Below, piece by piece: positions 24,681-44,055 of a DNA stretch of 64,000 nucleotides. This stretch comes from Serpula lacrymans var. lacrymans S7.9 (taxonomy: Eukaryota; Basidiomycota; Agaricomycetes; Boletales; Serpulaceae). The stretch is from contig NW_006763301.1 of NCBI RefSeq assembly GCF_000218685.1, positions 496,001-560,000 of the forward strand. The letters run 5' to 3'. A model generated the notes under the pieces. The model did not search any database. It worked only from the letters and a program-made list of their open reading frames with translations, and was not told the DNA's origin. The stretch's first letter is position 1, and every line of letters begins with the position of its first letter. The position numbers and the translations under genes were made by a program.

Positions 24681-24895
24681 AGCCCTATCGAGAACCCCGT
24701 CCTCTGGTCACTCCCGACACACCTCCCCCACAATCTCTAGGAGCTGCGGCTGAAGCTCTAGAACCAGACGATCTGTATCAATCAGCAGGACCAGAAAACT
24801 TTCCTCCCCCACCTCCAACTCCAGAACTTGAAAACCAACCCGACGATTGGCTCGATCAGGAATCTTTGGACCTTGAACCTGATCTAGCAGCAGCA

Positions 24896-25957
24896 ATGGC
24901 CGACGAAACAAATCAAGGAAGTAAAGCTGTCCTTGCCACTCCTCCATTCGAATTCATCGGTAAAAAGGAAACATACGTTGACTGGAAGAACGCATTAGCA
25001 AACTACTTTTTCGCCTATCCCAGAAGTTTCCAAACCAACTCCTCCAAAATCCTCTTTGCACTATCCCGGATCTCGTCCGATAAAGCCAATGACGCCTGTC
25101 ACACATGGAAGGCAAATTTCAACAACAAAACCGCAGTGCTAGGAGACCTATTTGCACCGCGAAATTGGGGAACTATCTCAGAATTCATCAAGGAATTAGA
25201 TAACGAATTCTTGGACCCCCATCTCAAATTGAAAGCAGAGATTGCCCTTCACGATTACGAACAGCGAGAGATGACGGTAGACGCATATTTTGGAGGACTC
25301 GAATCCAAACTCATGGAAGCGGGATTACCACCAGACGCAGATGAAAGTTATCCGTTCATTCACAGTATCCTTCGCCGCAACCTCTCTCAATTCCTTCGTG
25401 ATCGTATCTCGCAACAGGAAAACCTACCCACCACGTACTTAGAGTGGAAGGCAGCGGCAAGGAAATGGGAACAGCGAAATGAAGAGCTTAATCTGGAAAG
25501 GAGGAGAGATAAACCACCTCAACAGAGGCTGCCAATTCAGTACCAACGATATCAACCGCGCTATCAGCAGAACCAACACTACCCTCCGCCACAGCATCGA
25601 CAGACAGTACCGCGAACAGAGACGCGAAGACCACAGTATATCCAACAGCGACCGTATTATACTCCATCTCATAGACCACCGCCCCAGAATGCAGTCCATC
25701 CAAACACAGCAGGAACGTTTGGAGGATCAGGTGTACCTATGGAGATTGGGAGTTCCAACACGCAGAGACAACATCGGCCCAACCCGAATGTTACTTGTTA
25801 CAACTGTGGCGAACGAGGCCACATTGCTAGAAATTGCCCACATGGAAAGATGGCAATACGATATATGGAAACGGAGGAAACCAAAGACACTCCCACTACA
25901 TCGTCATTAAAAGAAATTGAAGCACCCCCGAAGGATTTTCAGAAAGGTCAGGAGTAA
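24896..25957 (+). CDS. gag: Gypsy gag polyprotein with CCHC zinc knuckle
   Basis: The ORF is open from about 24665, with the first ATG at 24896. It shows the Ty3/gypsy capsid pattern (KKETYVDWKNALANYFF, then RNWGTISEFIKELDNEF and REMTVDAYFGGLESKL), a Gln/Pro/Arg-rich linker, and one CCHC knuckle (CYNCGERGHIARNCP) that binds RNA. The open, Pro- and acid-rich stretch before the ATG reads like protein, so the true N-terminus may lie further upstream. The stop TAA at 25957 overlaps the pol frame. Confidence 0.88.
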   Translation: MADETNQGSKAVLATPPFEFIGKKETYVDWKNALANYFFAYPRSFQTNSSKILFALSRISSDKANDACHTWKANFNNKTAVLGDLFAPRNWGTISEFIKELDNEFLDPHLKLKAEIALHDYEQREMTVDAYFGGLESKLMEAGLPPDADESYPFIHSILRRNLSQFLRDRISQQENLPTTYLEWKAAARKWEQRNEELNLERRRDKPPQQRLPIQYQRYQPRYQQNQHYPPPQHRQTVPRTETRRPQYIQQRPYYTPSHRPPPQNAVHPNTAGTFGGSGVPMEIGSSNTQRQHRPNPNVTCYNCGERGHIARNCPHGKMAIRYMETEETKDTPTTSSLKEIEAPPKDFQKGQE

Positions 25958-28900
25958 GCACGGACTCTCTGACCCGAAATGTTGTATTTAACCCTCGTAC
26001 ATTACCAACGACTGCAATAAAACGAGTTGATCAACATCTACGTGCTGTAACCGAAACCTACGCGAAGCCACATTCACCGGAATGGCTGGCCAGACGAATC
26101 AAAGACCAGAAACCAGAAAGAGCAAGAGCTCTGTTACGAAACTGGGCCCATAAAGATCACTACGAGCATATCACCCTGCAGGCGATACAGATGCTGAGGA
26201 ACCACGACGAAGAGAACATTATAGAACGCATCCATGCTTACACCTCGCCGCACCACCCTACGTCAAAACGAAGCCTCCATATCATTTCTCAAGTCACTAC
26301 CATAGACGACAGACAGACATTCACCGTCCCAACCCTTATCGACTCTGGTTGCACCAACTCGGTTATCGATCGAAGCCTGGTTGACAAGTATACCCTCAAT
26401 ACTACGCCTCTGCCCGTCCCTCTTGACGCTGCAGGAGCCGATGGTCGATCCCAGAAAGTAACACACTATATCACTCTTCACATCAATGTGAAAGGGAAAG
26501 AACATTTGATAGATGTCATCGTAGCATCTCTACTTTCACCACGCATACTGCTTGGATACGACTGGTTGATACTGACGAATCCAACAATTGATTGGTGGAC
26601 CAACAAGATTACCTTCCCTGCTGATGATCCGGAGTATCATCCTGAAGAAGGGGATAAAGTTCTAGCCGTCGATCTCGAAACACGAATTATGGAGATAACA
26701 CAGCTAGAATTGAACGCATTTGCCACTAAAAGTCAACAAATCGCCGAATCCTCCGAAAAGGCAAAGTCAAAGCTTACTTTCCGAGATGTCGTTCCTCCAA
26801 TCTACCATGAATTCGAACCCGTCTTCACCAAAGAATCATTTGACAAACTTCCCCCGAAACGTCCTTGGGACCATGCAATTGAGTTAATACCCGAGGCTAA
26901 TGGTCTTGACTGCAAAATGTACCCTCTTAGCCGAGACGAACAACACCATCTAGACGAATTCCTTAACGAAAATCTAACAAGTGGACGGATTCGAGTATCC
27001 AAATCACCTTACGCATCGCCATTCTTCTTTATCAAAAAGAAAGATGGCTCACTACGCCCTGTCCAAGATTATCGCAAGCTGAATGAGCTTACCATAAAGA
27101 ATCGCTACACCCTCCCCCTCATATCCGAACTCATCGATAAACTCAAAGGTGCCAATTACTTCACGAAACTAGACGTACGATGGGGATACAACAACGTCCG
27201 AATCCAAGAAGGAGACGAACACAAGGCCGCTTTCAGGACCAATCGCGGCCTGTTCGAACCCCTCGTCATGTTTTTCGGACTTACCAACTCGCCGGCAACC
27301 TTCCAGACCATGATGGACCACCTCCTAAGAGAACTGATCACGGAAGGAAAAGTTATTGTATATTTAGAGGATATTATGATCTTCACGGAAACACTCGAAG
27401 AACATCGTCAAATAGTCACCAAAGTCCTCCGTATCCTGCAACAAAATCAGTTGTATCTCAAACCAGAGAAGTGCGAATTCGAGAAACAGGAAGTCGAGTA
27501 TTTAGGCATGATCATCTCCAAAGACACTATCCGTATGGATCCGTTAAAAGTCGCAGCGGTCGCTGACTGGCCCGCACCAAAGAACAAAAGAGAACTCCAA
27601 TCATTCTTAGGGTTCTCCAATTTCTATCGACGATTTATCAAAGTCTACGGACGAATTGCGAAACCACTCACTGTGCTCACCGGAAAAGTTGACTGGACCT
27701 GGAAAGACGAACAAGAAACGTCCTTTGAAACGTTGAAGAAAACGCTTACTACTGCCCCCACCCTTGCTATACCAAACGACGACAACCCATTCAAACTAGA
27801 AACTGACGCCTCTGACTTCGCTGTAGGAGCCGTCCTATCCCAGAAACAAAACGACAAATTCAGACCCATAGCATTCCTCTCGAAAGCCCTTACCGCTGCA
27901 GAACGAAACTATGAAATTTACGACAAAGAGATGCTCGCAGTCATGATGGCGTTAGATGAATGGCGACATCACCTTATAGGATCGAAACACCCCTTCACCA
28001 TCTTCACAGATCACCAAAACCTCCTCTACTTCCGTCAACCTCAGAAATACAATCGACGCCAAGCTCGATGGTCATCCCAGCTTGCAGATTATAATTTTAA
28101 GATGGAACACGTCAAAGGAAATCAGAATACGAAGGCCGACCTGTTAAGCAGACGGATCGATCATCCTAAAGGCACAAACGATAATGAGGATCAGATACTT
28201 CTCCCAGACGTACATTTCGAATTACTTGACACCAACGAAGGATACCTACCAGATATACGTCAAAGCTTCCAGAAACAAGACGACGTAGTAAAGAAGAACT
28301 TGAGAGAGAAGCCGGATACCTGGAAGATGAAGGATAGGATCGTCTGGATCAAGAGAGAGTCCGCGACGAGTTCCTACCCGATCCCTTTAGCTGACCGAGT
28401 ATACGTTCCCCGAAATCACGAACTAAGGGCGCGAATATTGAAAGATCATCACGACGAAGCCCTAGCCGGGCACCCAGGAGAAAGAACGATGTTTGAACGA
28501 GTAAACCGAGAGCTCTGGTGGCCAAGTCTTCGTACAGATATCAGACGGTATGTACGAGGATGCGAGAGTTGTCAACGCACCAAGGCACATCGGACAAAGA
28601 CTAACGCCCCTCTACACCCGAACCCGATACCAGATCGGCCTTGGCAGATTATCACCACCGATCTCATAGGCGCATTACCGGAATCCAAGGGCTACACCGC
28701 CGTTCAGGTCTTTGTTGACCGATTTAGTAAAATGGCCCATTTTGTCCCCACCTTCGTCACTCTCGACTCGGCCGGTTATGCACGTCAACTCCGAGATAAT
28801 GTAATACAACTCCACGGAATTCCTGAAAAGATCGTCTCTGATCGAGGTCCTCAATTCATGTCTCGATTCACAAAAGACTTCTACGACCTAATGGGGATAA

Positions 28901-29850
28901 CACCAGGCCTCTCTACAGGCTATCACCCTCAAACAGACGGACAATCCGAACGGATCAACCAGGATCTAGAGCACTACCTCCGCGTTTTTATAAATCATCG
29001 ACAAGATGACTGGGCAGACTGGCTCTCCATTGCTGAGTTTACATACAACAACCACCTCCATACCGCAACGAATCAAACGCCTTTCTTTTTGAACTATGGG
29101 TTACACCCAAGAACGAATATCACCACCACGTCGTCCCCTCGCTCCGCTTCTGCAGCAGAATTTAGCGAACAAATGAAAAAACTCCACGATATCACGAAAT
29201 CCTCCCTTCTTGTAGCAAACGAGAATCTGAAGAAGTATTACGACCGCAAGAAGTCCCCCTCCCAGGAGTACCAAGTTGGCGACAAAGTCTGGTTAGAAGG
29301 GCATAACATCACAACGAATAGACCAATGAAGAAATTGGACGATAAACGCTTCGGACCTTTCAAAGTCACCCAAAAGGTCGGACCCTCCGCATACCAACTC
29401 GACATCCCTAAAAGTTGGAAGTCCATTCACCCCGTATTCAACGAAGCCATCCTCTCACCATACCACGCTCCCGAATTCCTCAATCAACCAATTTCCTCAC
29501 GACCACCACCCGAGATTGTGGAAGGAATAGACGAATACGAAGTAGAGAGTATAATCGCTTCTAGACCGACTAAACTGAAAGGTAGTAAGCTCGACTACCT
29601 AATTCACTGGCATGGTTATCCAGTCTCCGAATGCACTTGGGAACCCGACACCAATCTTACGCATGTCACTGATTTACTCGCCACCTTCCACAAAACAAAT
29701 CCCGCCGCCCCTCGTATTATTACCGCTTCTCTTCACTTCCGTCCTTACGAAAACTACACCGCCACTTCTAAACCGCCGATGCTTTTTGATTGGATTAGTA
29801 ATAAGTTCCAAAGTGCCGCATCCGGACTCATGAGGACACGAGTCTTATAA
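25921..29850 (+). CDS. pol: Gypsy pol: protease, RT, RNase H, integrase, chromodomain
   Basis: A single uninterrupted frame, in the -1 phase relative to gag, overlaps the gag end by about 35 bases; the first ATG is at 26191. Domains in order are: protease (LIDSGCTNSVID); reverse transcriptase (KLDVRWGYNNVRI, FFGLTNSPATFQ, and an active-site motif read as YLEDIMI where Y-x-D-D is canonical); RNase H (ETDASDFAVGAVL); integrase HHCC zinc domain (GHPGERTMFERV to CESCQRTK); DDE core (TTDLIGALP, SDRGPQFMS, TDGQSERI); and a C-terminal chromodomain (DYLIHWHGYPVSECTWEP). Length and order are complete. The changed RT motif (first Asp to Glu) may reduce or abolish activity. Confidence 0.93.
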   Translation, partial: STPEGFSERSGVSTDSLTRNVVFNPRTLPTTAIKRVDQHLRAVTETYAKPHSPEWLARRIKDQKPERARALLRNWAHKDHYEHITLQAIQMLRNHDEENIIERIHAYTSPHHPTSKRSLHIISQVTTIDDRQTFTVPTLIDSGCTNSVIDRSLVDKYTLNTTPLPVPLDAAGADGRSQKVTHYITLHINVKGKEHLIDVIVASLLSPRILLGYDWLILTNPTIDWWTNKITFPADDPEYHPEEGDKVLAVDLETRIMEITQLELNAFATKSQQIAESSEKAKSKLTFRDVVPPIYHEFEPVFTKESFDKLPPKRPWDHAIELIPEANGLDCKMYPLSRDEQHHLDEFLNENLTSGRIRVSKSPYASPFFFIKKKDGSLRPVQDYRKLNELTIKNRYTLPLISELIDKLKGANYFTKLDVRWGYNNVRIQEGDEHKAAFRTNRGLFEPLVMFFGLTNSPATFQTMMDHLLRELITEGKVIVYLEDIMIFTETLEEHRQIVTKVLRILQQNQLYLKPEKCEFEKQEVEYLGMIISKDTIRMDPLKVAAVADWPAPKNKRELQSFLGFSNFYRRFIKVYGRIAKPLTVLTGKVDWTWKDEQETSFETLKKTLTTAPTLAIPNDDNPFKLETDASDFAVGAVLSQKQNDKFRPIAFLSKALTAAERNYEIYDKEMLAVMMALDEWRHHLIGSKHPFTIFTDHQNLLYFRQPQKYNRRQARWSSQLADYNFKMEHVKGNQNTKADLLSRRIDHPKGTNDNEDQILLPDVHFELLDTNEGYLPDIRQSFQKQDDVVKKNLREKPDTWKMKDRIVWIKRESATSSYPIPLADRVYVPRNHELRARILKDHHDEALAGHPGERTMFERVNRELWWPSLRTDIRRYVRGCESCQRTKAHRTKTNAPLHPNPIPDRPWQIITTDLIGALPESKGYTAVQVFVDRFSKMAHFVPTFVTLDSAGYARQLRDNVIQLHGIPEKIVSDRGPQFMSRFTKDFYDLMGITPGLSTGYHPQTDGQSERINQDLEHYLRVFINHRQDDWADWLSIAEFTYNNHLHTATNQTPFFLNYGLHPRTNITTTSSPRSASAAEFSEQMKKLHDITKSSLLVANENLKKYYDRKKSPSQEYQVGDKVWLEGHNITTNRPMKKLDDKRFGPFKVTQKVGPSAYQLDIPKSWKSIHPVFNEAILSPYHAPEFLNQPISSRPPPEIVEGIDEYEVESIIASRPTKLKGSKLDYLIHWHGYPVSECTWEPDTNLTHVTDLLATFHKTNPAAPRIITASLHFRPYENYTATSKPPMLFDWISNKFQSAASGLMRTRVL

Positions 29851-31527: not shown

Positions 31528-32796
31528 ATGATGTTGCTGGATCTTAAAAGCCGAGTGTTTTCCATACTGTTTTCCATACAACGCTACCTTGCCCCAAAGT
31601 TTCACATCATGGAGCGCAAGGAACCATACACTTGTATCGATGCGCTTTTTCAAGACAACATTCACAAGTACCCAGTTGCTCAATGGCAAGATATGATGAC
31701 GCGGTTACCCGAGGACGTTGCATCTCGCTGCTTCGTTCATACGCTCGAGTTCTGTAAGGAAAGCAGAGGTGCAGAACATGAGTTTTTGTTGGCATATATC
31801 CGCCATCCAAACCCCAATGTTTCCACTCGCTCGTTGGTAAAGATAGAGCGCTTCGTTAGCACTGATCAGCGCCAAGCACAGAAGAGGGAAGGTGAGAGCG
31901 AGTCAGGGGATCCGAGGAAGACAATCGCGCAGCTATCGTCCTCCGTTGATAAACCAGCCTATGATTCGATGACTGTCGTTACGGAGGGCGCAGAAGGACG
32001 AGCAATGTTGGCTGCCACCCAACCGTATGAGTGCCTTGGCACAATCATTTATCCTCACCAAGTTGACACTCCTATACCCAATGTCTATCACCTCTCCATA
32101 CTTGCTGGTATTATCAGTGGATATTCGCCCTACAAACTATATGGAAGCCAATGCTACTGGTTTGCGCACACACTCTGGGGGAGTCTGTCCAGACTTTTTC
32201 CAAATGTCAAATTTATTGACAACCAAAGAGCATCTGAACGCTCAAAGTGGAGAATAATACCCGTTATAGTTAACGATGATGTGGACGAAGTGTGCGAGAA
32301 GTATCACATAGTTTGGCGAACGTTTCAGGAACGAAAGGAAGAAGAACAAAACCGTCACCAGGAAGTAAGTCTCCTAATGTATGTCTTCTCAAGTTTTCAT
32401 TAAACTGACTGTTCGAAACAGCACACTCAACAAGTCTGGCAAGGAGGCCGAGAAGAAGGCCTGCAAGAAGGCCGAGAAGAAGGCCTGCAAGAAGGCCGAG
32501 AAGAAGGCCTGCAACAAGGCCGAGAAGAAGGCCTGCAACAAGGCCTGCAACAAGGTCTGCAACAAGGCCGGCAACAAAATCAAGACGAAATTGATCGGCT
32601 GCAACGACAGCGCCAACAGGACAAGGAGCAGGTGCGACGAAAATATGAGGAGCAGCTGCAACGACAGCGTCAAGAGGACAAGGAGCAGCTGCAACGACAG
32701 CGCCAAGAGGACAAGGAGCAGCTGCAACGACAGCGCCAAGAGGACATGGATCAGTTATATCAACGGTTTAAACGGGAACGAGAAGAACGGGAGTAG
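31528..32796 (+). CDS. Unknown protein with C-terminal Gln/Glu-rich coiled-coil repeats
   Basis: Exon 1 (31528-32364) encodes a globular-looking domain with LPEDVASRCFVHTLEFCKES and SILAGIISGYSPYKLYGSQC. I cannot assign it, though such proteins are common in Agaricomycetes. A clear intron (32365-32421, GTAAGT...CAG) joins exon 2. Exon 2 opens with repeated heptads of the QEGREEGL type and continues with about three copies of an RQRQEDKEQLQ unit, forming a long charged coiled coil to the stop at 32796. The start could also be the in-frame ATG at 31609. Repeat units are nearly identical at DNA level, so copy number may vary between strains. Confidence 0.6.
32422..32760 (+). repeat. In-frame minisatellites encoding the coiled coil
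   Basis: There are two tandem arrays. The first (about 32440-32575) has a 24-base GGCCGAGAAGAAGGCCTGCAAGAA-type unit that decays to shorter units. The second (about 32600-32750) has a 30-33-base CAGCTGCAACGACAGCG-type unit. Both keep the reading frame. Confidence 0.8.
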
Positions 32797-36483: not shown

Positions 36484-36742
36484 TACAACAATAATAACAC
36501 GGAGCAATAAGGATATAGATAGGTTCAGAGAACGTTCAGGTCAAGTTGCTGGAGCACATATATATTTCCCGTCAATCGAGGTGCTTTAATAGTGTCCTTC
36601 CACGTGGCTTTAATACTTCCACACTGTCCCTTTTGGCAGTTGCCGTGAGCGTGGCTGTTCCTACCAGACGCCTCCCAGCCCAAAACACTGTGGGCCACAG
36701 GTATTCTCCGGGATCACTGGCAATGAGTCTTGTGGGAAGGGA
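36484..36742. promoter_or_regulatory. Residual upstream region of elongin A
   Basis: Only 259 bases separate the elongin A start codon from the target duplication of a 7.3 kb transposon. The native promoter is therefore confined to this stretch or has been displaced. Confidence 0.5.
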
Positions 36743-36990
36743 TACGGTGGATGATTGGTTACGGCTCAACTTTCGAGCCCGGCCAATGTCCGGCATAATA
36801 TTTTTCAAAATCCGATGTACCTTCAGCTATTATATTTGTATTTAGCAAAATTCGAGCAAGGCCTTTGATGGGCGATCAACGAAAATACATTTTAATTAAT
36901 TTCTTTGATCCAGCGAGTGTGATTTGGGCAAAAGCCAGTGTGATGAGAGATCGAGCGAGCGTGCAATTCAACATGTCAACATAGGATTTC
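36743..36990 (+). repeat. Left terminal inverted repeat of the 7.3 kb transposon
   Basis: It is inverted and almost identical to 43801-44049; I see about three single-base differences. It ends just before the 3' end of the alpha-kinase gene. Confidence 0.93.
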
Positions 36991-37032
36991 AAGCGATACA
37001 GTAAGTACATGTCATGTAAAAAAAAATCCCTC

Positions 37033-39860
37033 TCAGCCACGAACACGACTGGACATGATGTCAATCTCTTGTGATGTTCTCATCTTTGTAGCCGAACTCT
37101 GTGAAAAAAGAGGTGACATGAGATGTAGTAGAAAGGATCCATCAGAAAAAGAAAACATACTGCTGTCTGCAAGGAAGGGAGTCCGAAATATACACAATAC
37201 TGGTTGCATTTGTGCAACAAGGGGAAGTTGTCTAACGTCGCCGTCCAGTTTCCTTCGCCAAAATTATCGGCAAAGTCTCTGGGAAAGGATGAGAACCAAC
37301 CACATGGAGGTAATAGAGCCTTACTTGGTAGTGATAACCTGGCAGTCAGTCAATATTCCACCGGACCCTGACAAGTCAAATGTAAGTACGAAAAGGAAAG
37401 CAAAAGAGACTAGCTTATATTAACTTACCTTGAAAATCTGAGATGAACACAAGGCCTTGCGAGAAATGATATTGAGTGTGTTGTGCGAAGCATAGGAAGG
37501 TTGCAATCTCCAGTTCAGGCGGAGCAAGTTTGTGCCGAGGAGCTGCACTATTGTTATTGATATACTTCACGAAGTTACCGTTTATCTTCTCCTCGAGAAG
37601 ATAAACGGCATTACGCAACTCTCTGCTGTCTTGGGGGATGGCCAAAGCGGCGTGGACGACTCGAAGTCGGGGGATTGCCGGGGGAGGACAGTCAAGGGGC
37701 CTTCGAATAAGCTTGTCGTCGACGAAGTTATAAACTAAAGCCAACAGGCTTGTTGCCCAGTAAAGGCAGTTAGCCTCGTCGAGCATCTTCATTAGCTCAT
37801 CCTTGATGGCCAGTCGTTTGCGCCCGCCTGAAGGACTTGATGGTGTACCACTCTTTTCGGCTCCCTGTACTGTTTCTCTGTAAAAGCAACGTTTTGCTAC
37901 TATAGCCTCTACCTGTAGAATATTTTCCTCTGCTGGCAGAGCTTCAGTTAGATCATATGACGCTGGGTGGCATGTCTTGAAGCTACCGGCTGGCCCCAGC
38001 ATTGCTTTTGAGCTGCAGTCAACTGTTAAAGTGACTAGAGGGCGATTGACCTTGCTCATGACATCGAAAGGGACCCGCTTCTTTAGAAGCTCAGTGAATG
38101 GGATCGAAGGGACGAGGAACAGGACATAGATTCCTATGTCCGTATTTACTTCACTAGCACGTTAATAGATGTTTTAGATAGAAATATAGGTTGACTTACA
38201 TATCGGCTTTGCTAGGCGTCGAACATCTCCTTGTGCCTTCATGACACGCTCAAGAACTGCCTTGTCAGGCATGCTGAATGGCGGGATATTGGGATTAGTA
38301 GCAGCCTTGGAGAAAAGTCTTGAGGGCAGTGATTGGCTGCTAGAGCTTGAGGGAGTGAGGGGGCGTAGTTCAGACGTCTTGATGGAGTGTTTGCTGTGGA
38401 ATAGGCTTGACATTGATGCTGTGCTGCGTGTATTGTTACTACGACTGTCATATTCACCCTACATGTGGTAAGTATCGTCTCCAATAATGTGAGGGCCATT
38501 GGCATACCTCCTCTGACACTGGTGCTTTTGAACGCACAGATACCGACTCACGTGCGGGGATGGAAGATTGGCCTGGCGCCTTTCGCACACGAGTCTTTCT
38601 AGCTCGTTTCCCACCACGTGTTGCTGCAAGGAATATCTAGTAAGGCCAGTTGCTGTAAGTATAGCGCAGTAAAAGTAAGTAAAATGTATAACCTTGTCCA
38701 TCGGACCACCAATATCATCATCGTCTGACGATATTCCGGGGCTCTGAACCTCTTCATTGCGTGAGCGTGCTTTGGCATGCCTATCTTCTTCCTTCCATAG
38801 CAAGACATCTTCAAATTCCTCCTTTGACATCAAGAGAATGATGGGAACTTTCACGTTTGGTGAAAACTTGGGCATGTTGTCCTTTGCTGATGTGCGGAAG
38901 AAAAAATCGTGAAGGACCAGCCGCTCAGAGTATTGATGAGGCTCTTCGGGGTCGTAAATGAGGAGTAATGGAGCCTTCAGCATCTGTAAAGACTCGAGTG
39001 CCAGCTGATGGTCACAAGACCAGACCACCCACAAACGCTTCAGGTGTTCAATCACTATGTTGCGTAGTTGGCCACATTTAATAGAGAGCGGTACTGTAAT
39101 GTCTCGTTCAATATTCTCAAATAATAGTACATGTGAGTATCCTTGAAATATTGAAGTACCCAAAGACTCACCCCAACCAGCTCTGTTCCAGATTTTCCTT
39201 CGTCCTTCACATGATGGAGAGCTATCCGGATTGTGACTTGACGTTGAGGAGCTACTGTTGATGCTAGCATTTTCGTGCGGTGGTGGGCGTGGAATGCATG
39301 GTTCTGAGTATATCCTATGGCTTGGGAGACGCTATCAGCACTGACACTAGCAGACGAGGGGATAAGAGGGGGAGGCATAACGCTAGATGTAGCATGTCCC
39401 ACCCCAATATGCTGCCTAGGGAATGACTGTTCTGGGATTTCATAATGTGTGTTTGGTAAGTAACTTGAACACGCACAGGTGAGCTGGAAATTTTACTCAC
39501 CGCCACGTTGTGCGGCCGAAGAAGCCTTGACAAGAGCCTGGCGCGAGTCGGCATCAACACCATGTGCCCGGGAAGCCACTTTCGTGAAATCTAGATTTGA
39601 TCCTTAACATATACATTGAATTACAGAAGACAATCAGACATACCGACAATTTCACCAGATATTGCACTGGTACTATGACCATGACGTTCTCCAGTTTCCG
39701 CACGCTTGCGCTGATAATGCTCGACGCAATCTGAACAGCAGTGGCGACCGGTCCCATCCCTACCCTTGATATACAAGAACCGGACAGACTTATCAAATTC
39801 TGTACGACAACGATGACAACTTTTAGTTGGTGGGCCTTCGATAGTGGGTGTGAAGTCCAT
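37033..39860 (-). CDS. Alpha-type protein kinase with N-terminal zinc motif (transposon cargo)
   Basis: This is a multi-exon minus-strand gene inside the transposon. The N-terminus has paired cysteines (SCHRCRTEF ... RHCCSDCVEHY), likely a small zinc-binding domain. The middle is disordered, with a conserved-looking block ITVPLSIKCGQLRNIVIEHL and LKRLWVVWSCDHQL. The C-terminal third is an alpha-kinase domain: KRCFYRETVQ, MLDEANCLYWATSLLALVYN, AVYLLEEKINGNFVKYINN, EIATFLCFAQHTQYHFSQG, the catalytic-region FISDFQG, a glycine segment GSGGILTDCQV, and the zinc-coordinating end LLHKCNQYCVYFGLPSL. These are the landmarks of the MHCK/eEF2K family and all appear kept. Substrate and role are unknown. 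Confidence 0.8.
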
Positions 39861-40444
39861 GGCGGCTAATTTACTTACTGTTCTCCCCCCATTCCTGGTG
39901 TAGTTTATATGGATCCTTGAAGATGAGTTGTAGTCCGAATGGATTTGGGTCGAGTCGAGTCAAATTTGAGAACTCCTCGGCACAAAGATAACAATGAGGA
40001 CTTTGCCAATCTGAGTGGCTGGCGACTCACCAATGGGCCATCCTCGAACAACACGCGGACAAGGATCAATATGGATATGTCAAAGCTGGTGATTGCAAAT
40101 TGACATGAGGAGATGGGAGATCTTTGCGGAGATAATGTCAGTGAAAACAAATGAGGAAGAGGCAGGCACCGGTTAAATGAATTGCGTGCAAACACGATCT
40201 GATTAGCCTTACGGTTTTGTCTGAAGTGCGTATCCAAGTGTCTATTGAGCGGATCTTCCATATCCTTTCTGCCCATAGGATCACTTGAAGAACTGACTCC
40301 ACTGCTTACACTGAACAGGCTGTGGATCAAATAGGAAGTGTACTATTGGACTGTGCATCCTATAGGTGAGTGTTCAAATTGCAGTGCCCCACGTGCATCA
40401 GCCAAGTGCTAACGCTATCCAGGACTGTCAACGCCCTGCAGGCC
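39861..40444. other. Divergent region between kinase and transposase genes
   Basis: This is 584 bases between the start of the alpha-kinase gene (-) and the first exon of the transposase gene (+), inside the transposon. An antisense open frame at 39905-40330 has no recognisable homology. The stretch probably serves as a shared promoter. Confidence 0.45.
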
Positions 40445-42214
40445 ATGCCTAACCCTCAAGGTACCAATGGGTATAAGGTATCCCCTGGTAGGCTTGCATA
40501 AACGACACTCCAAGGGTGTAATGCTCACTTTCTGTCCTTTTCTCACAGCTCCAGACATTTTAATCCGACCATTGGTGGAACAATTCGTCGCAGATGGATA
40601 CACAAATCCAGAAATTGTCACTAAACTCAAGGACTACTATGACACGGACCGCTACTCATTTTCGTAAGCCTTCTAGCTGTAATACTACAATACACTGACA
40701 CATTTGATTAACTATAGTCTCGCTTTACTGAAGAAAAAACGGATGGTTTGGGGCTTGAAGAGTGCTCGGGGCCAGGCACACTCAGTTGATAGTGTGGGGC
40801 CTACCATTGAACGTGTTCGTGAGCGGTTCCCTCACCAGGGGTCACACGATATGAGAGTGACTTTGCGACAAGAGGAAAGGGTGATGGTGCCTCGGTAAGT
40901 TGTTTCACTTTTCACACAGTGGCAGTCACAAGGACGTTAGTATACTAGGCAGGTAATACTAGACTACATGAATCTACACCATCCAGACGAAGTAAAAGGA
41001 CGTCGAAAACGCCGGCTGAAGCGTAGTTATTTCTGGACAGCAGGTGTCAATGAACTGTGGTGTTTTGACCAGCATGATAAGTGGAGACGCTTTCAGCTTT
41101 TTTTTCACGTTGGACTCGAGCCCTTCTCCGGCTATGTACTCTGGCTCAAAGTCTGGTGGACTAACCATAATCCGCGTCTGATATGTGGATGGTATTGTGA
41201 TGTCGTGGAGAGATTGGGTGGTGAGTCTCTTTCTCCGGTGTTTCAACTGCTTGGCTGCCAATTGCTGACTTATACTAGGGATGCCTCTAATCACACAAAG
41301 TGACCCCGGCACTGAAAACAATGGTATCGCAAACGGCCATACATTACTTCGTCATATGCAAGACCCGGCTTTAGACAAGACCCTGCAACATACGTTCAAA
41401 GGATCTCACCGGAACATTAAGCCTGAGATCTTTTGGGGCCAATTTCGAAGACGTTGGGCGCCGGGATTTGAGGCTCTCCTTGACTGGGGGGTCAACGAGG
41501 GCCTTTATGATGCTGACGATGCTCTTCAACGGTTGCGTATATCCATTTACCTAAGCAAAGCGGCCACAACTGACACAAACCTGTAGACTAGTCTTCCACT
41601 ATGTATTTATCCCCTGGATACAGCAAGAACTCAACTGCTTCATTGAGAGGTTCAACGGTTCAAAGCCCCGACGAAACTCACACAAGTTACTACCTCATGG
41701 ACGCCCTGTAGATATCTTCAAGAACCCGGAGCTTTTTGAGTCACGCAATTTTGCTGTAAGTTCATAGTATCATTTCCACTTTGTCATATACTTATAATAC
41801 ATACATCTACAGGTTAAGGTGCATCCGCCGTATCTAACAGAAGTGCGAGACAAGTATGCACCACCCGATCACCCTGTTTTTCATCTGGTCCCGCCGGCCT
41901 TTTCGTTACAGGCACGCACATTCTGGGATGCTGCCAACTACCCTCAAGTTGGCCGAGAAAACATATGGGACATCTATTTACACTTACTCCAGCAGTTCCG
42001 AGATCAGCCAAACAACATGGAGTTGCGTACTGTGATGGCCCTTTCAGTGAACTCTAATGAGGAGGATGAGTCCGAATTCATGCCAGTCATGGAGCTTCCA
42101 CCCCACCGGCAACGGAGGCGCGTTGTAGGAGATGCACCACAGAACACCGGGGGCTACTCATCTGACGAAGCTGATACAGATTTTGAGTATGAGTGGACAG
42201 ACGACTCGGATTAG
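40445..42214 (+). CDS. Integrase-core DDE transposase
   Basis: This is a spliced gene, first exon 40445-40487. The N-terminal helix-turn-helix-like part reads RPLVEQFVADGYTNPEIVTK. The catalytic core contains LWCFDQHDKWRRFQLFFHV (first Asp), LITQSDPGTENNGIANGH (second Asp) and IKPEIFWGQFRRRWAPGFE (Glu about 41 residues after the second Asp), giving a DD-about-40-E triad. Downstream come WIQQELNCFIERFNGSKPRR and a short acidic tail to 42214. This type of integrase-core protein is widespread in agaric genomes and in some animals. No frame is broken, so the enzyme may be active. It should bind the 248-base inverted repeats. Confidence 0.82.
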
Positions 42215-42928
42215 CTTAGGCCTTTTAGTATGTGTTCTGGTCTTTCTTGTTTTCTTGAAATGCACTTTGGATATCAAATCATTGTATTGTACATAGAATA
42301 GCTAAATACAACAATGAATGTTTCTATGGAATCATGCTTTGGGCCCGAGAACTTGAGTTCTGGAATGCACAACTGTGCAGATGCTGTAAGGAGCAACTCA
42401 CACCGAGTTTATTTGTAATTTAATATGGGAATTGTACCTTCCAGTCTCTTTGAGATCTCCTTGATCCTCCAAGCATGTGAGTACAATGGGATTCCATTGT
42501 GCGTCGGCGGAGACCATTGTTTTGGCTTTGCGTTGAATCATTTGGTTAGTGCGGGCTAATATGAGACATATGACCACAAGAAAGAGCTGGAACTGACTGT
42601 GCATTACTGTATTGGCGTGAGCATGTGGTTGACGCGAAGCTCTTCAAGAATGTGTCGCCAGAATTGCATGAAAAGATTTACAGTGCTGTCTGAACAGCTG
42701 ATTATTCCGAGATCGTGAAGTACACACGTGATGTTGATTTGTTGGACCTTAGCTATTGTTCTCACGCATGAAAATTCTGCAACTCTGTCAGACTGCCGTG
42801 TTTGTAGATCTCAATAATTGTCAACTATGGGCTGTAAGTCTATGCTGCCTCAAGCAAACAGCTATAAAAGGTACGGGTGAGTTCACAATTATCATCCAGA
42901 CATACTTACCTCCTCCTTCCAAATTGCA
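42215..42928. other. Stretch between transposase and viroplasmin-domain genes
   Basis: This is 714 bases inside the transposon without a supported gene. A TATA box (TATAAAAG, 42863-42870) lies about 60 bases before the next start codon. Confidence 0.5.
42863..42870 (+). promoter_or_regulatory. TATA box of the viroplasmin-domain gene
   Basis: TATAAAAG sits 59 bases upstream of the ATG at 42929, a sensible distance for a core promoter. Confidence 0.55.
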
Positions 42929-43742
42929 ATGACTCAATCTCCTCCCCCTGGTCGTTCAAACTCTTCCAAGCAGCCTGAACGCTCCGTGAGTGAAGATTGC
43001 CTCAGCGACGAGGAAGAAACTATGAGTAAGGCCTTCTCATGTTTCTGATTATTGCACTAACTTACGTGTACCTCCAGACATCCTCCTTTCTCTCCTCTCA
43101 TCCGTAACCTTGAGTAGGAGCAACGCTATGCTCATGATGTCCGCTGTTCTTGGCAGTGCCCGCCCTTCAACTCCATCAAGTCCCATATACACCAGCTCTT
43201 CCCCATCTTCCTCAATAGTTCAAGGGTCGCTTGCCGCCAGCTCTACTGTGGTATCTGGTCCTTCAGCTGCTGCTTCTTCACGCACTCCTGCTTTGGGTGC
43301 CGCCTCTTCTCCGCTTACTCCTGCTTTGGGTGCCAGTGCTTATGCGACAGTTTCTCCGATCACCACCAGCTCTCCTCTTTTCACCACAGCACTTGGCTCG
43401 CTCGCTACCCCTGCCGCTCCACCTGGAGGTAATGTGCCAAATGCCTCACAGGCTATCACTCGCACATACCTCGGCCAGGTTTATGAGGTTCCTGATGCTG
43501 GGACAGCTGGTCCCTTCTATTTGGTCACCAGAGGACGTAGAATTGGTATCTTTGCTGCGTGGTAAGTGACCTTTGACTCGTCGACTTCGAAACTGTCTCA
43601 TCTCTATTTTCTCAGGCAGTCTACCTCTCCTCTCGTTATCGCTGTCAGCCGCGCCGTTTTTACTCGCTGTCCTTCTATTTCCGCCGGTATCACAGCCATG
43701 CAGAACACAATCGAAGCGGGTGAGGTGGAGATCTTACCTTGA
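42929..43742 (+). CDS. Viroplasmin/RNase H1 N-like domain protein (transposon cargo)
   Basis: Three exons encode a protein of about 230 residues. The N-terminal two thirds are Ser/Ala/Pro-rich and disordered, with a repeated RTPALGAASSPLTPALGAS-like unit. The C-terminal part crosses an intron at about 43562-43616 and reads FYLVTRGRRIGIFAAW, then AVSRAVFTRCPSISAGI. This fits the small viroplasmin (Cauli_VI) fold found at the N-terminus of RNase H1, which binds RNA-DNA hybrid or double-stranded RNA. The gene lies just inside the right inverted repeat. The role in the element is unknown. Confidence 0.65.
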
Positions 43743-43800
43743 GGAGAGGGGTTGTCAGTATATGTGTAATACTTGTAATTTCTTGATGTATTTGGACGCT

Positions 43801-44049
43801 TGAAATCCTATGTTGACATATTGAATTGCACGCTCGCTCGATCTCTCATCACACTGGCTTTTGCCCAAATCACACTCGCTGGATCAAAGAAATTAATTAA
43901 AATGTATCTTCGTTGATCGCCCATCAAAGGCCTTGCTCGAATTTTGCTAAATACAAATATAATAGCTGAAGGTACATCGGATTTTGAAAAATATTATGCC
44001 GGACATTGGCCGGGCTCGAAAGTTGAACCGTAACCAATCATCCACCGTA
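43801..44049 (-). repeat. Right terminal inverted repeat of the 7.3 kb transposon
   Basis: This is the inverted partner of 36743-36990. It ends CCACCGTA directly before the AAGGGA target duplication. Confidence 0.93.
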
Positions 44050-44055
44050 AAGGGA

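Follow-up and report, generated by a model that had tools for sequence, protein, structure and literature searches.

A probable IS3EU-type DNA transposon of Serpula lacrymans with an alpha-kinase gene co-inherited with its transposase

The window analysed here is a stretch of 64,000 nucleotides from the genome of Serpula lacrymans S7.9, a dry-rot fungus of the Boletales and not, as the original prediction supposed, an agaric in the narrow sense. Positions 36743–44049 constitute a cut-and-paste DNA element of 7,307 bp, bounded by inverted repeats of 253 bp, flanked by a target duplication of 6 bp, and encoding three genes: an alpha-kinase (KIN), a DDE/integrase-type transposase (TP), and a third gene (G3). 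The features are as follows.

36737..36742, no strand: left target site duplication AAGGGA, 6 bp
36743..36995, plus strand: left terminal inverted repeat, beginning TACGG, 253 bp, with 3 mismatches against the right arm
37080..39860, minus strand: KIN, 9 exons (39644-39860, 39501-39602, 39172-39431, 38693-39115, 38508-38636, 38200-38458, 37429-38148, 37325-37367, 37080-37278), 783-aa model from gene modelling and profile search, last ~25 residues uncertain
40445..42214, plus strand: TP, 7 exons (40445-40487, 40549-40663, 40718-40894, 40949-41220, 41279-41531, 41587-41755, 41813-42214), 476-aa DDE/integrase-type transposase with D152/D211/E252, from gene modelling and profile search
42929..43742, plus strand: G3, 3 exons (42929-43025, 43078-43561, 43616-43742), 235-aa gene model
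43797..44049, minus strand: right terminal inverted repeat, finishing CCGTA, 253 bp
44050..44055, no strand: right target site duplication AAGGGA, 6 bp

The arms of the inverted repeats are 99% complementary over 253 nt; they are near-identical, as had been proposed, although the length given then was 248 nt. The duplication AAGGGA flanks the element on both sides, as predicted. The kinase gene, placed earlier at 37033–39860, is indeed multi-exon and carries the PF02816 domain, and its upper bound stands; the lower bound of our model is 37080. KIN and TP lie in opposite orientations, with 584 bp separating their coding parts.

KIN matches the alpha-kinase profile PF02816 with an E-value of 2.9e-17 and 63.8 bits, above the curated cut-off of 21.3. 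The kinase domain is C-terminal (about residues 500–760), and the window model contains the VAK lysine (547–549), DFQG (701–704), LTD (709–711) and H-x-C-x3-C (740–746) motifs. When the window was aligned with nine further lineages, the VAK lysine and DFQ were kept in 10/10 rows, and LTD and H-x-C-x3-C in 8/10. We take these motifs to have their usual catalytic and zinc roles in KIN; part of them was aligned here to TRPM7. The N-terminal Cys-pair motif noted previously is present in the gene model as two zinc-type pairs, C15xxC18 and C41C42xxC45, and residues from about 165 to 300 possibly form a ubiquitin-like domain. The predicted structure is of low confidence (mean pLDDT 52), and eEF2K is among the nearest solved structures.

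Over 476 aa, the TP model shows no difference from a database protein of S. lacrymans S7.9, and it matches the integrase core PF24764 (E 1.9e-12). Among 22 aligned homologues, out of 120 listed, D152 and D211 are kept in all and E252 in 21. Seven fold matches were recovered (E up to 0.001), to TnsB/Tn7-type and IstA complexes, with low TM-scores. G3, which is absent from the earlier description, has a Ser/Thr/Pro-rich stretch and a C-terminal segment weakly resembling the RNase H1 N-terminal (Cauli_VI) domain (PF01693, E 0.004, under the cut-off); relatives of it are present in other lineages.

Twenty-two matches to the inverted repeat were found in the genome: twenty form ten pairs, one is an unpaired end (C6), and one, at the diverged copy c15, is weak. 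Three of the ten two-ended copies contain N and are assessable only in part, and nine of the ten have a perfect 6-bp target duplication. The remaining seven are gap-free; these share the same ends (TACGGTGGATGA..TCATCCACCGTA), five are letter-identical over 7,307 bp, and the kinase is present in all seven, which was the check proposed with the original prediction. Short non-autonomous or kinase-less copies of the window family were not seen among the 22 matches, of which the three pairs that contain N and the unpaired end are only partly assessable. The seven gap-free copies rule out that repeats came to flank a host gene by chance.

More diverged relatives, c13, c14 and c15, retain matching inverted-repeat cores of 36, 37 and 32 bp, respectively. 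Both c14 (ends TACGG and TACAG) and c15 (TATGG and TACGG) contain kinase, transposase and perfect 6-bp duplications. The decayed copy c13 has a duplication that matches at five of six bases if one changed end base is allowed, and its ends, TACAG and CACGG, depart from the TA..TA and TAYGG..CCRTA patterns. The window family itself has the 6-bp target duplication, TA..TA ends and inverted repeats longer than 30 bp by which IS3EU elements are recognised. The element is a recently mobile DNA transposon, very probably of the IS3EU type, that carries its own three genes and is probably autonomous; structure, profiles and the six further gap-free copies agree with the earlier view of a DNA transposon with an alpha-kinase and a transposase inside.

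Thirty kinase loci were found in the genome, 29 of which match the element's kinase by sequence. For 21 of the 30, a related transposase lies no more than 15 kb away, against 0.6 expected under an even placement across the genome that transposons do not obey; with the window family counted once, the figure is 14/22. These counts derive from match midpoints compiled by hand, and transposase loci that are broken into fragments, on C7 and C17, enter the count in separate pieces. With so many kinase loci close to such a transposase, the expanded alpha-kinases of this genome are for the most part a family of transposon genes, and the suggestion that transposition accounts for the expansion holds for most loci here. 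In the nine Serpula loci where both genes could be read, the kinase adjoins the transposase in opposite orientation.

The other nine kinase loci have no listed transposase within 15 kb. Two of them (L030 and L032) have G3 in its expected place, and a third (L037) has a G3-like match too weak to be counted (E 7e-4, 52 aa); about 1 kb from L036 there is a distant transposase match (E 6e-6, 27% over 128 aa), for C9:1021k a transposase lies about 19 kb off, and the kinase copy at C21:117k runs into N. At L029, L033 and L038 neither a transposase nor G3 was found with confidence within the 5–7.5 kb inspected. Conversely, for five transposase loci (L034, L035, C1:1324k, C1:2309k and C1:2762k) no kinase is listed within about 20 kb, but inspection of L034 (C1:5457k) revealed kinase pieces 2–58 and 66–193. 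In Boletus and Suillus, 5/11 kinase relatives lie on a contig equal in length to one that bears a listed transposase relative.

Transposons capture host genes, and the kinase could be a passive passenger, a gene of the host that became trapped between the repeats and does nothing for the element; the transposase fragment at L035, with no kinase match in the 7.5 kb inspected, would fit such a history. We consider this extremely improbable, as it is largely refuted by substitution ratios and co-descent. Between lineages, the kinase has dN/dS values of 0.119–0.160 in five comparisons, near those of the transposase (0.092–0.174), the ratios being rough because dS is 0.7–1.3. The tightest parts of KIN are the kinase domain (residues 461–760, 0.076–0.098) and residues 194–336 (0.074–0.091), and the loosest is the linker at 337–460 (0.219–0.373). 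The order kinase–transposase–G3 is the same in 5/5 diverged loci where all three were found. In 13 linked pairs, kinase and transposase distances correlate strongly (Mantel r 0.915, p 0.0001), and the kinase has co-diversified with the transposase. The term cargo used in the original prediction is correct in that the kinase lies inside the element, but it understates what the evidence points to, a gene inherited together with the transposase and under element-level selection.

Three clades, each with an unchanged inner order, recur in the kinase and transposase trees (the window with c13–c15, c2 with c12b, and Boletus with Suillus), but the two trees disagree on where c4, c17 and the c2/c12b clade belong at depth, with support values reaching 0.92. 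Such disagreement might reflect independent, repeated capture of alpha-kinases by different elements, as Kojima describes for TET/JBP genes, which move between fungal transposon superfamilies (PMC12730594). The shared clades, the distance correlation and the constant divergent arrangement in Serpula disfavour this within the Boletales, and we regard it as very improbable.

A further alternative is that the kinase benefits the host, in signalling, stress or translation control, and that the element spreads by carrying it. The translation regulator eEF2K is a member of the alpha-kinases, and its place among the nearest structures speaks for this idea. Between the decayed sister copies c13 and c14, however, the kinase has a dN/dS of 0.895 (95% bootstrap 0.607–1.452), and is thus kept no better than the transposase (0.759; 0.449–1.392); this neutral value rests on one copy pair. 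In c13, c14 and c15 the kinase alignment includes stop codons, some of which could be exon-edge alignment errors in these diverged copies. Nearly all kinase loci match the element's kinase, as noted above, and no clearly domesticated copy was seen in this genome. A benefit to the host is therefore improbable. The kinase is constrained between lineages, and such constraint is not seen between the two stranded copies.

It is highly probable that this is an IS3EU-type element with a core kinase. What is new here is that the kinase looks like a core gene of long standing, inherited together with the transposase and under element-level selection, and not like incidental cargo. From co-descent, and from between-lineage constraint that is absent in stranded copies, we infer that the kinase serves the element in trans, within the transposition cycle; that it serves the element rather than the host is probable. 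Its most likely task is to license the element that encodes it to move or to be expressed. In the mechanism we favour, the N-terminal region, with its zinc-type and ubiquitin-like parts, would bind the kinase to the transposase or to a host partner from chromatin or repair; phosphorylation would then license excision or integration, or relieve host silencing. As the substrate we tentatively propose a protein of the element, either the transposase or another one; a similarly tentative candidate is a host factor of silencing, the cell cycle or translation.

Alpha-kinase expansions are also found in mushrooms. One may go further and imagine a eukaryotic cut-and-paste transposon whose own alpha-kinase, through phosphorylation, acts as a gate on transposition and has been an indispensable second enzyme from before the time when the sampled Boletales lineages parted, and, by extension, alpha-kinase expansions of rusts and mushrooms that consist of transposon genes rather than host signalling genes; we hold this broad proposal to be doubtful. 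In rusts the alpha-kinase family is described as highly expanded (PMC4469406), a wheat-rust domain table with enrichment values includes it (PMC5295586), and one rust alpha-kinase is named among genes under diversifying selection (PMC4150398). If the kinase is kept functional for the transposon itself, it offers a new handle on the regulation of eukaryotic transposition; it is also a warning that alpha-kinases counted as fungal host kinase families can be transposon genes.

Compared with the alpha-kinases MHCK-A, eEF2K and TRPM7, KIN is alike in family profile, motifs and nearest solved structures, and differs in being transposon-encoded and in having a Cys-pair N-terminus, and possibly a ubiquitin-like domain, joined to the kinase domain. 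The giant Starship cargo transposons are likewise mobile elements with non-transposase genes, but they use a tyrosine recombinase captain and are far larger, whereas the Serpula element has terminal inverted repeats, a DDE transposase and a length of 7.3 kb. No such captain was found in it, its three gene models matching only an integrase core, an alpha-kinase and, weakly, Cauli_VI.

With the IS3EU/GingerRoot superfamily (PMC10045372) the element shares TA..TA termini, the usual 6-bp target duplications and a DDE transposase that may be IS3/IS481-like; the word "kinase" does not occur in the main text of that paper. The original prediction held a eukaryotic element with a kinase passenger to be undescribed, but the kind is already in print: Kojima (2025; PMC12730594) reports that all TET-bearing IS3EU families, from rust fungi and Tuber, encode an alpha-kinase and, in the opposite orientation, a transposase, the main text using the word "kinase" only twice, in one passage. 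Those elements and ours have in common 6-bp target duplications, TAYGG..CCRTA ends, inverted repeats longer than 30 bp and the divergent transposase and alpha-kinase. They differ in that the TET-bearing elements have a TET/JBP gene between transposase and kinase (PMC12730594), whereas a TET profile gave no match in the three gene models or six ORFs of the window element. The window element has G3 after its transposase, and its host belongs to the Boletales.

The window element, an IS3EU-type DNA transposon at window positions 36743-44049, is bounded by terminal arms of 253 nt that are 99% complementary and is flanked on either side by AAGGGA. Three genes lie within it:

KIN, minus strand: alpha-kinase, 9 exons, 783-aa model, PF02816 (E 2.9e-17)
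TP, plus strand: transposase, 7 exons, 476 aa, integrase core PF24764 (E 1.9e-12)
G3, plus strand: third gene, 3 exons, 235 aa, RNase H1 N-terminal domain (E 0.004, under the family cut-off)

The TP model is identical over 476 aa to database protein P0008 of Serpula lacrymans var. lacrymans S7.9, the dry-rot fungus, of the Boletales. The arrangement described in the original prediction – a kinase and a transposase between inverted repeats with an AAGGGA duplication – is borne out. Elsewhere in the window there is a chromovirus-type Gypsy LTR element (24866-29850), with a zinc-knuckle ORF followed by a 1,219-aa pol ORF (protease, reverse transcriptase, RNase H, integrase and chromodomain), and, at 32438-32754, a pair of short tandem repeats, one built of 24-bp units and the other of 33-bp units.

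The window repeat has 22 matches in the S7.9 genome, and the whole element has seven full-length matches, counting the window itself; five of the seven, the window among them, are letter-identical. Copy L014 differs from the window by 13 substitutions, and the sole difference in L013 is an apparent pair of compensating one-base shifts in the last TP exon. These shifts (window 41819-41877) are about 58 bases apart and would alter about 19 TP residues; they may reflect either a real variant or an assembly error. All seven gap-free copies contain the kinase between the repeats, a check that the original prediction had proposed. L015, L016 and L017 have both ends but are interrupted by N, and in L018 a single end is present, again with N; the N stretches in these four copies span 2.0-5.9 kb. 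Nine of the ten two-ended copies are flanked by perfect 6-bp duplications, each of different sequence, and the presence of identical copies at different sites indicates recent movement. The exception is L009, which has no 6-bp duplication and shares its right flank with L017, so that L009 has probably been rearranged; ectopic recombination or segmental duplication between the copies is the likely cause. Both reside on the small contig C21 (L009 at 160256-167562, L017 at 116403-124651), their right flanks are alike over the 20 bases compared, and only L017 has a 6-bp duplication matching that flank.

Three related loci are 71-75% identical in DNA to the window element over the genes, and their ends and duplications are as follows:

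c15: ends TATGG/TACGG, duplication GGCCTG
c14: ends TACGG/TACAG, duplication CAATCT
c13: ends TACAG/CACGG, flanks CTAACG/CTAATG

Two of these are oversized (c15, 13.6 kb; c14, 15.4 kb) because other DNA sits in their kinase genes. All three loci have short repeats, with only about 32-37 bp common to two ends whose inner parts are unlike, whereas both ends of the window family are copies of the same end, and it seems that one end replaced the other. In the window element, the pair so formed would be the long 253-bp arms at 36743-36995 and 43797-44049. Another pair of inverted arms, about 300 bp long and 81% alike, overlaps with c13 (L021, 1556-1908 and 8461-8844); with one arm inside c13 and one outside, it probably represents two opposite copies of another repeat. 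KIN and TP are also present in the more diverged c2, c4, c12b and c17, and G3 was detected in c13, c14, c15, c2, c4, L032 and L030. The five three-gene loci among these share the order kinase, oppositely directed transposase, G3.

Across the genome we compared 30 kinase loci with about 30 transposase loci. A transposase lies within 15 kb of 21 of the 30 kinase loci, where 0.63 is expected under even placement; with the nine window-family loci counted once, the figure is 14 of 22. Two kinase loci without a transposase within 15 kb (L030 and L032) retain G3, another (C9:1021k) lies about 19 kb from a transposase, and the copy at C21:117k runs into N. In the DNA read around L029, L033, L037 and L038, neither transposase nor G3 was recognised with confidence. 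L036, with a distant transposase match (E 6e-6) about 1 kb away, is the sole kinase locus found by Pfam profile only; the other 29 of 30 match the element's KIN by sequence. Reciprocally, a kinase lies no more than 15 kb from 23 of the 30 transposase loci, and about 19-21 kb from two of the other seven; of the remaining five, two were read, with kinase pieces inside L034 and no kinase in the 7.5 kb seen at L035. No alpha-kinase resembling a separate host gene was seen among the best-scored candidates of the S7.9 genome. In this genome the alpha-kinase family has expanded mainly by transposon copy number, as the original prediction had proposed more generally.

Kinase and transposase distances were compared for 13 linked pairs: eight are Serpula loci, and the other five come from Boletus edulis and three Suillus species, where kinase and transposase relatives on equal-sized contigs were taken to be linked. 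The distances are strongly correlated (r 0.915, permutation p 0.0001), and both trees contain the clades window plus c13-c15, c2 plus c12b, and Boletus plus Suillus, with the same inner order; they disagree on the deep joining of these clades, c4 and c17 (support 0.34 to 0.92). Against the best 120 of 127 transposase relatives, five of the 11 kinase relatives from outside Serpula can be given a partner in this way, and one of the six unpartnered lies on a contig of just 2.5 kb.

The proposed comparison of kinase dN/dS among copies was made by NG86 with stop codons excluded and bootstrap intervals. Kinase values for the window family are 0.125 (0.095-0.161) against c13, 0.119 (0.090-0.151) against c14 and 0.152 (0.116-0.193) against c15, with transposase values of 0.109, 0.110 and 0.092; for the pair c13-c15 the kinase stands at 0.160 and the transposase at 0.174, and for c14-c15 at 0.159 and 0.171. 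Between c13 and c14, in contrast, which are decayed sister copies, the kinase ratio is 0.895 (0.607-1.452) and the transposase ratio 0.759 (0.449-1.392), this neutral value coming from a single pair and the between-lineage dS being 0.7-1.3. The kinase is tightest at residues 461-760 (0.076-0.098) and 194-336 (0.074-0.091) and loosest in the linker, 337-460 (0.219-0.373). The kinase is thus constrained between lineages with no constraint detectable between stranded copies, as for the transposase, the pattern expected from element-level rather than host-level selection.

Alpha-kinases are reported, in the available portions of the sources, as highly expanded in rusts and absent from Microbotryomycetes (PMC4469406), as a family in a table of wheat rust domains (PMC5295586), and in one rust case among diversifying-selection genes (PMC4150398). 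IS3EU elements have TA..TA ends and usually 6-bp duplications (PMC10045372, in part), and the available text recording them from Ganoderma and Phlebopus genomes mentions no kinase link. The one publication found to join alpha-kinase, DNA transposon and transposase is Kojima 2025 (PMC12730594), in whose main text "kinase" appears just twice. The original impression that such an element might be undescribed does not hold, since the available parts of that paper put the kinase-bearing kind in print. As far as the literature was searched, three points go beyond print: the kinase has the behaviour of a core gene that is co-inherited and under element-level selection, G3 accompanies it, and the S7.9 kinase expansion is mainly of transposon origin. 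The window element is a new Boletales member of the published kind and, minus the TET gene, fits the plan given there for TET-bearing fungal IS3EU, with transposase and alpha-kinase in opposite orientations.
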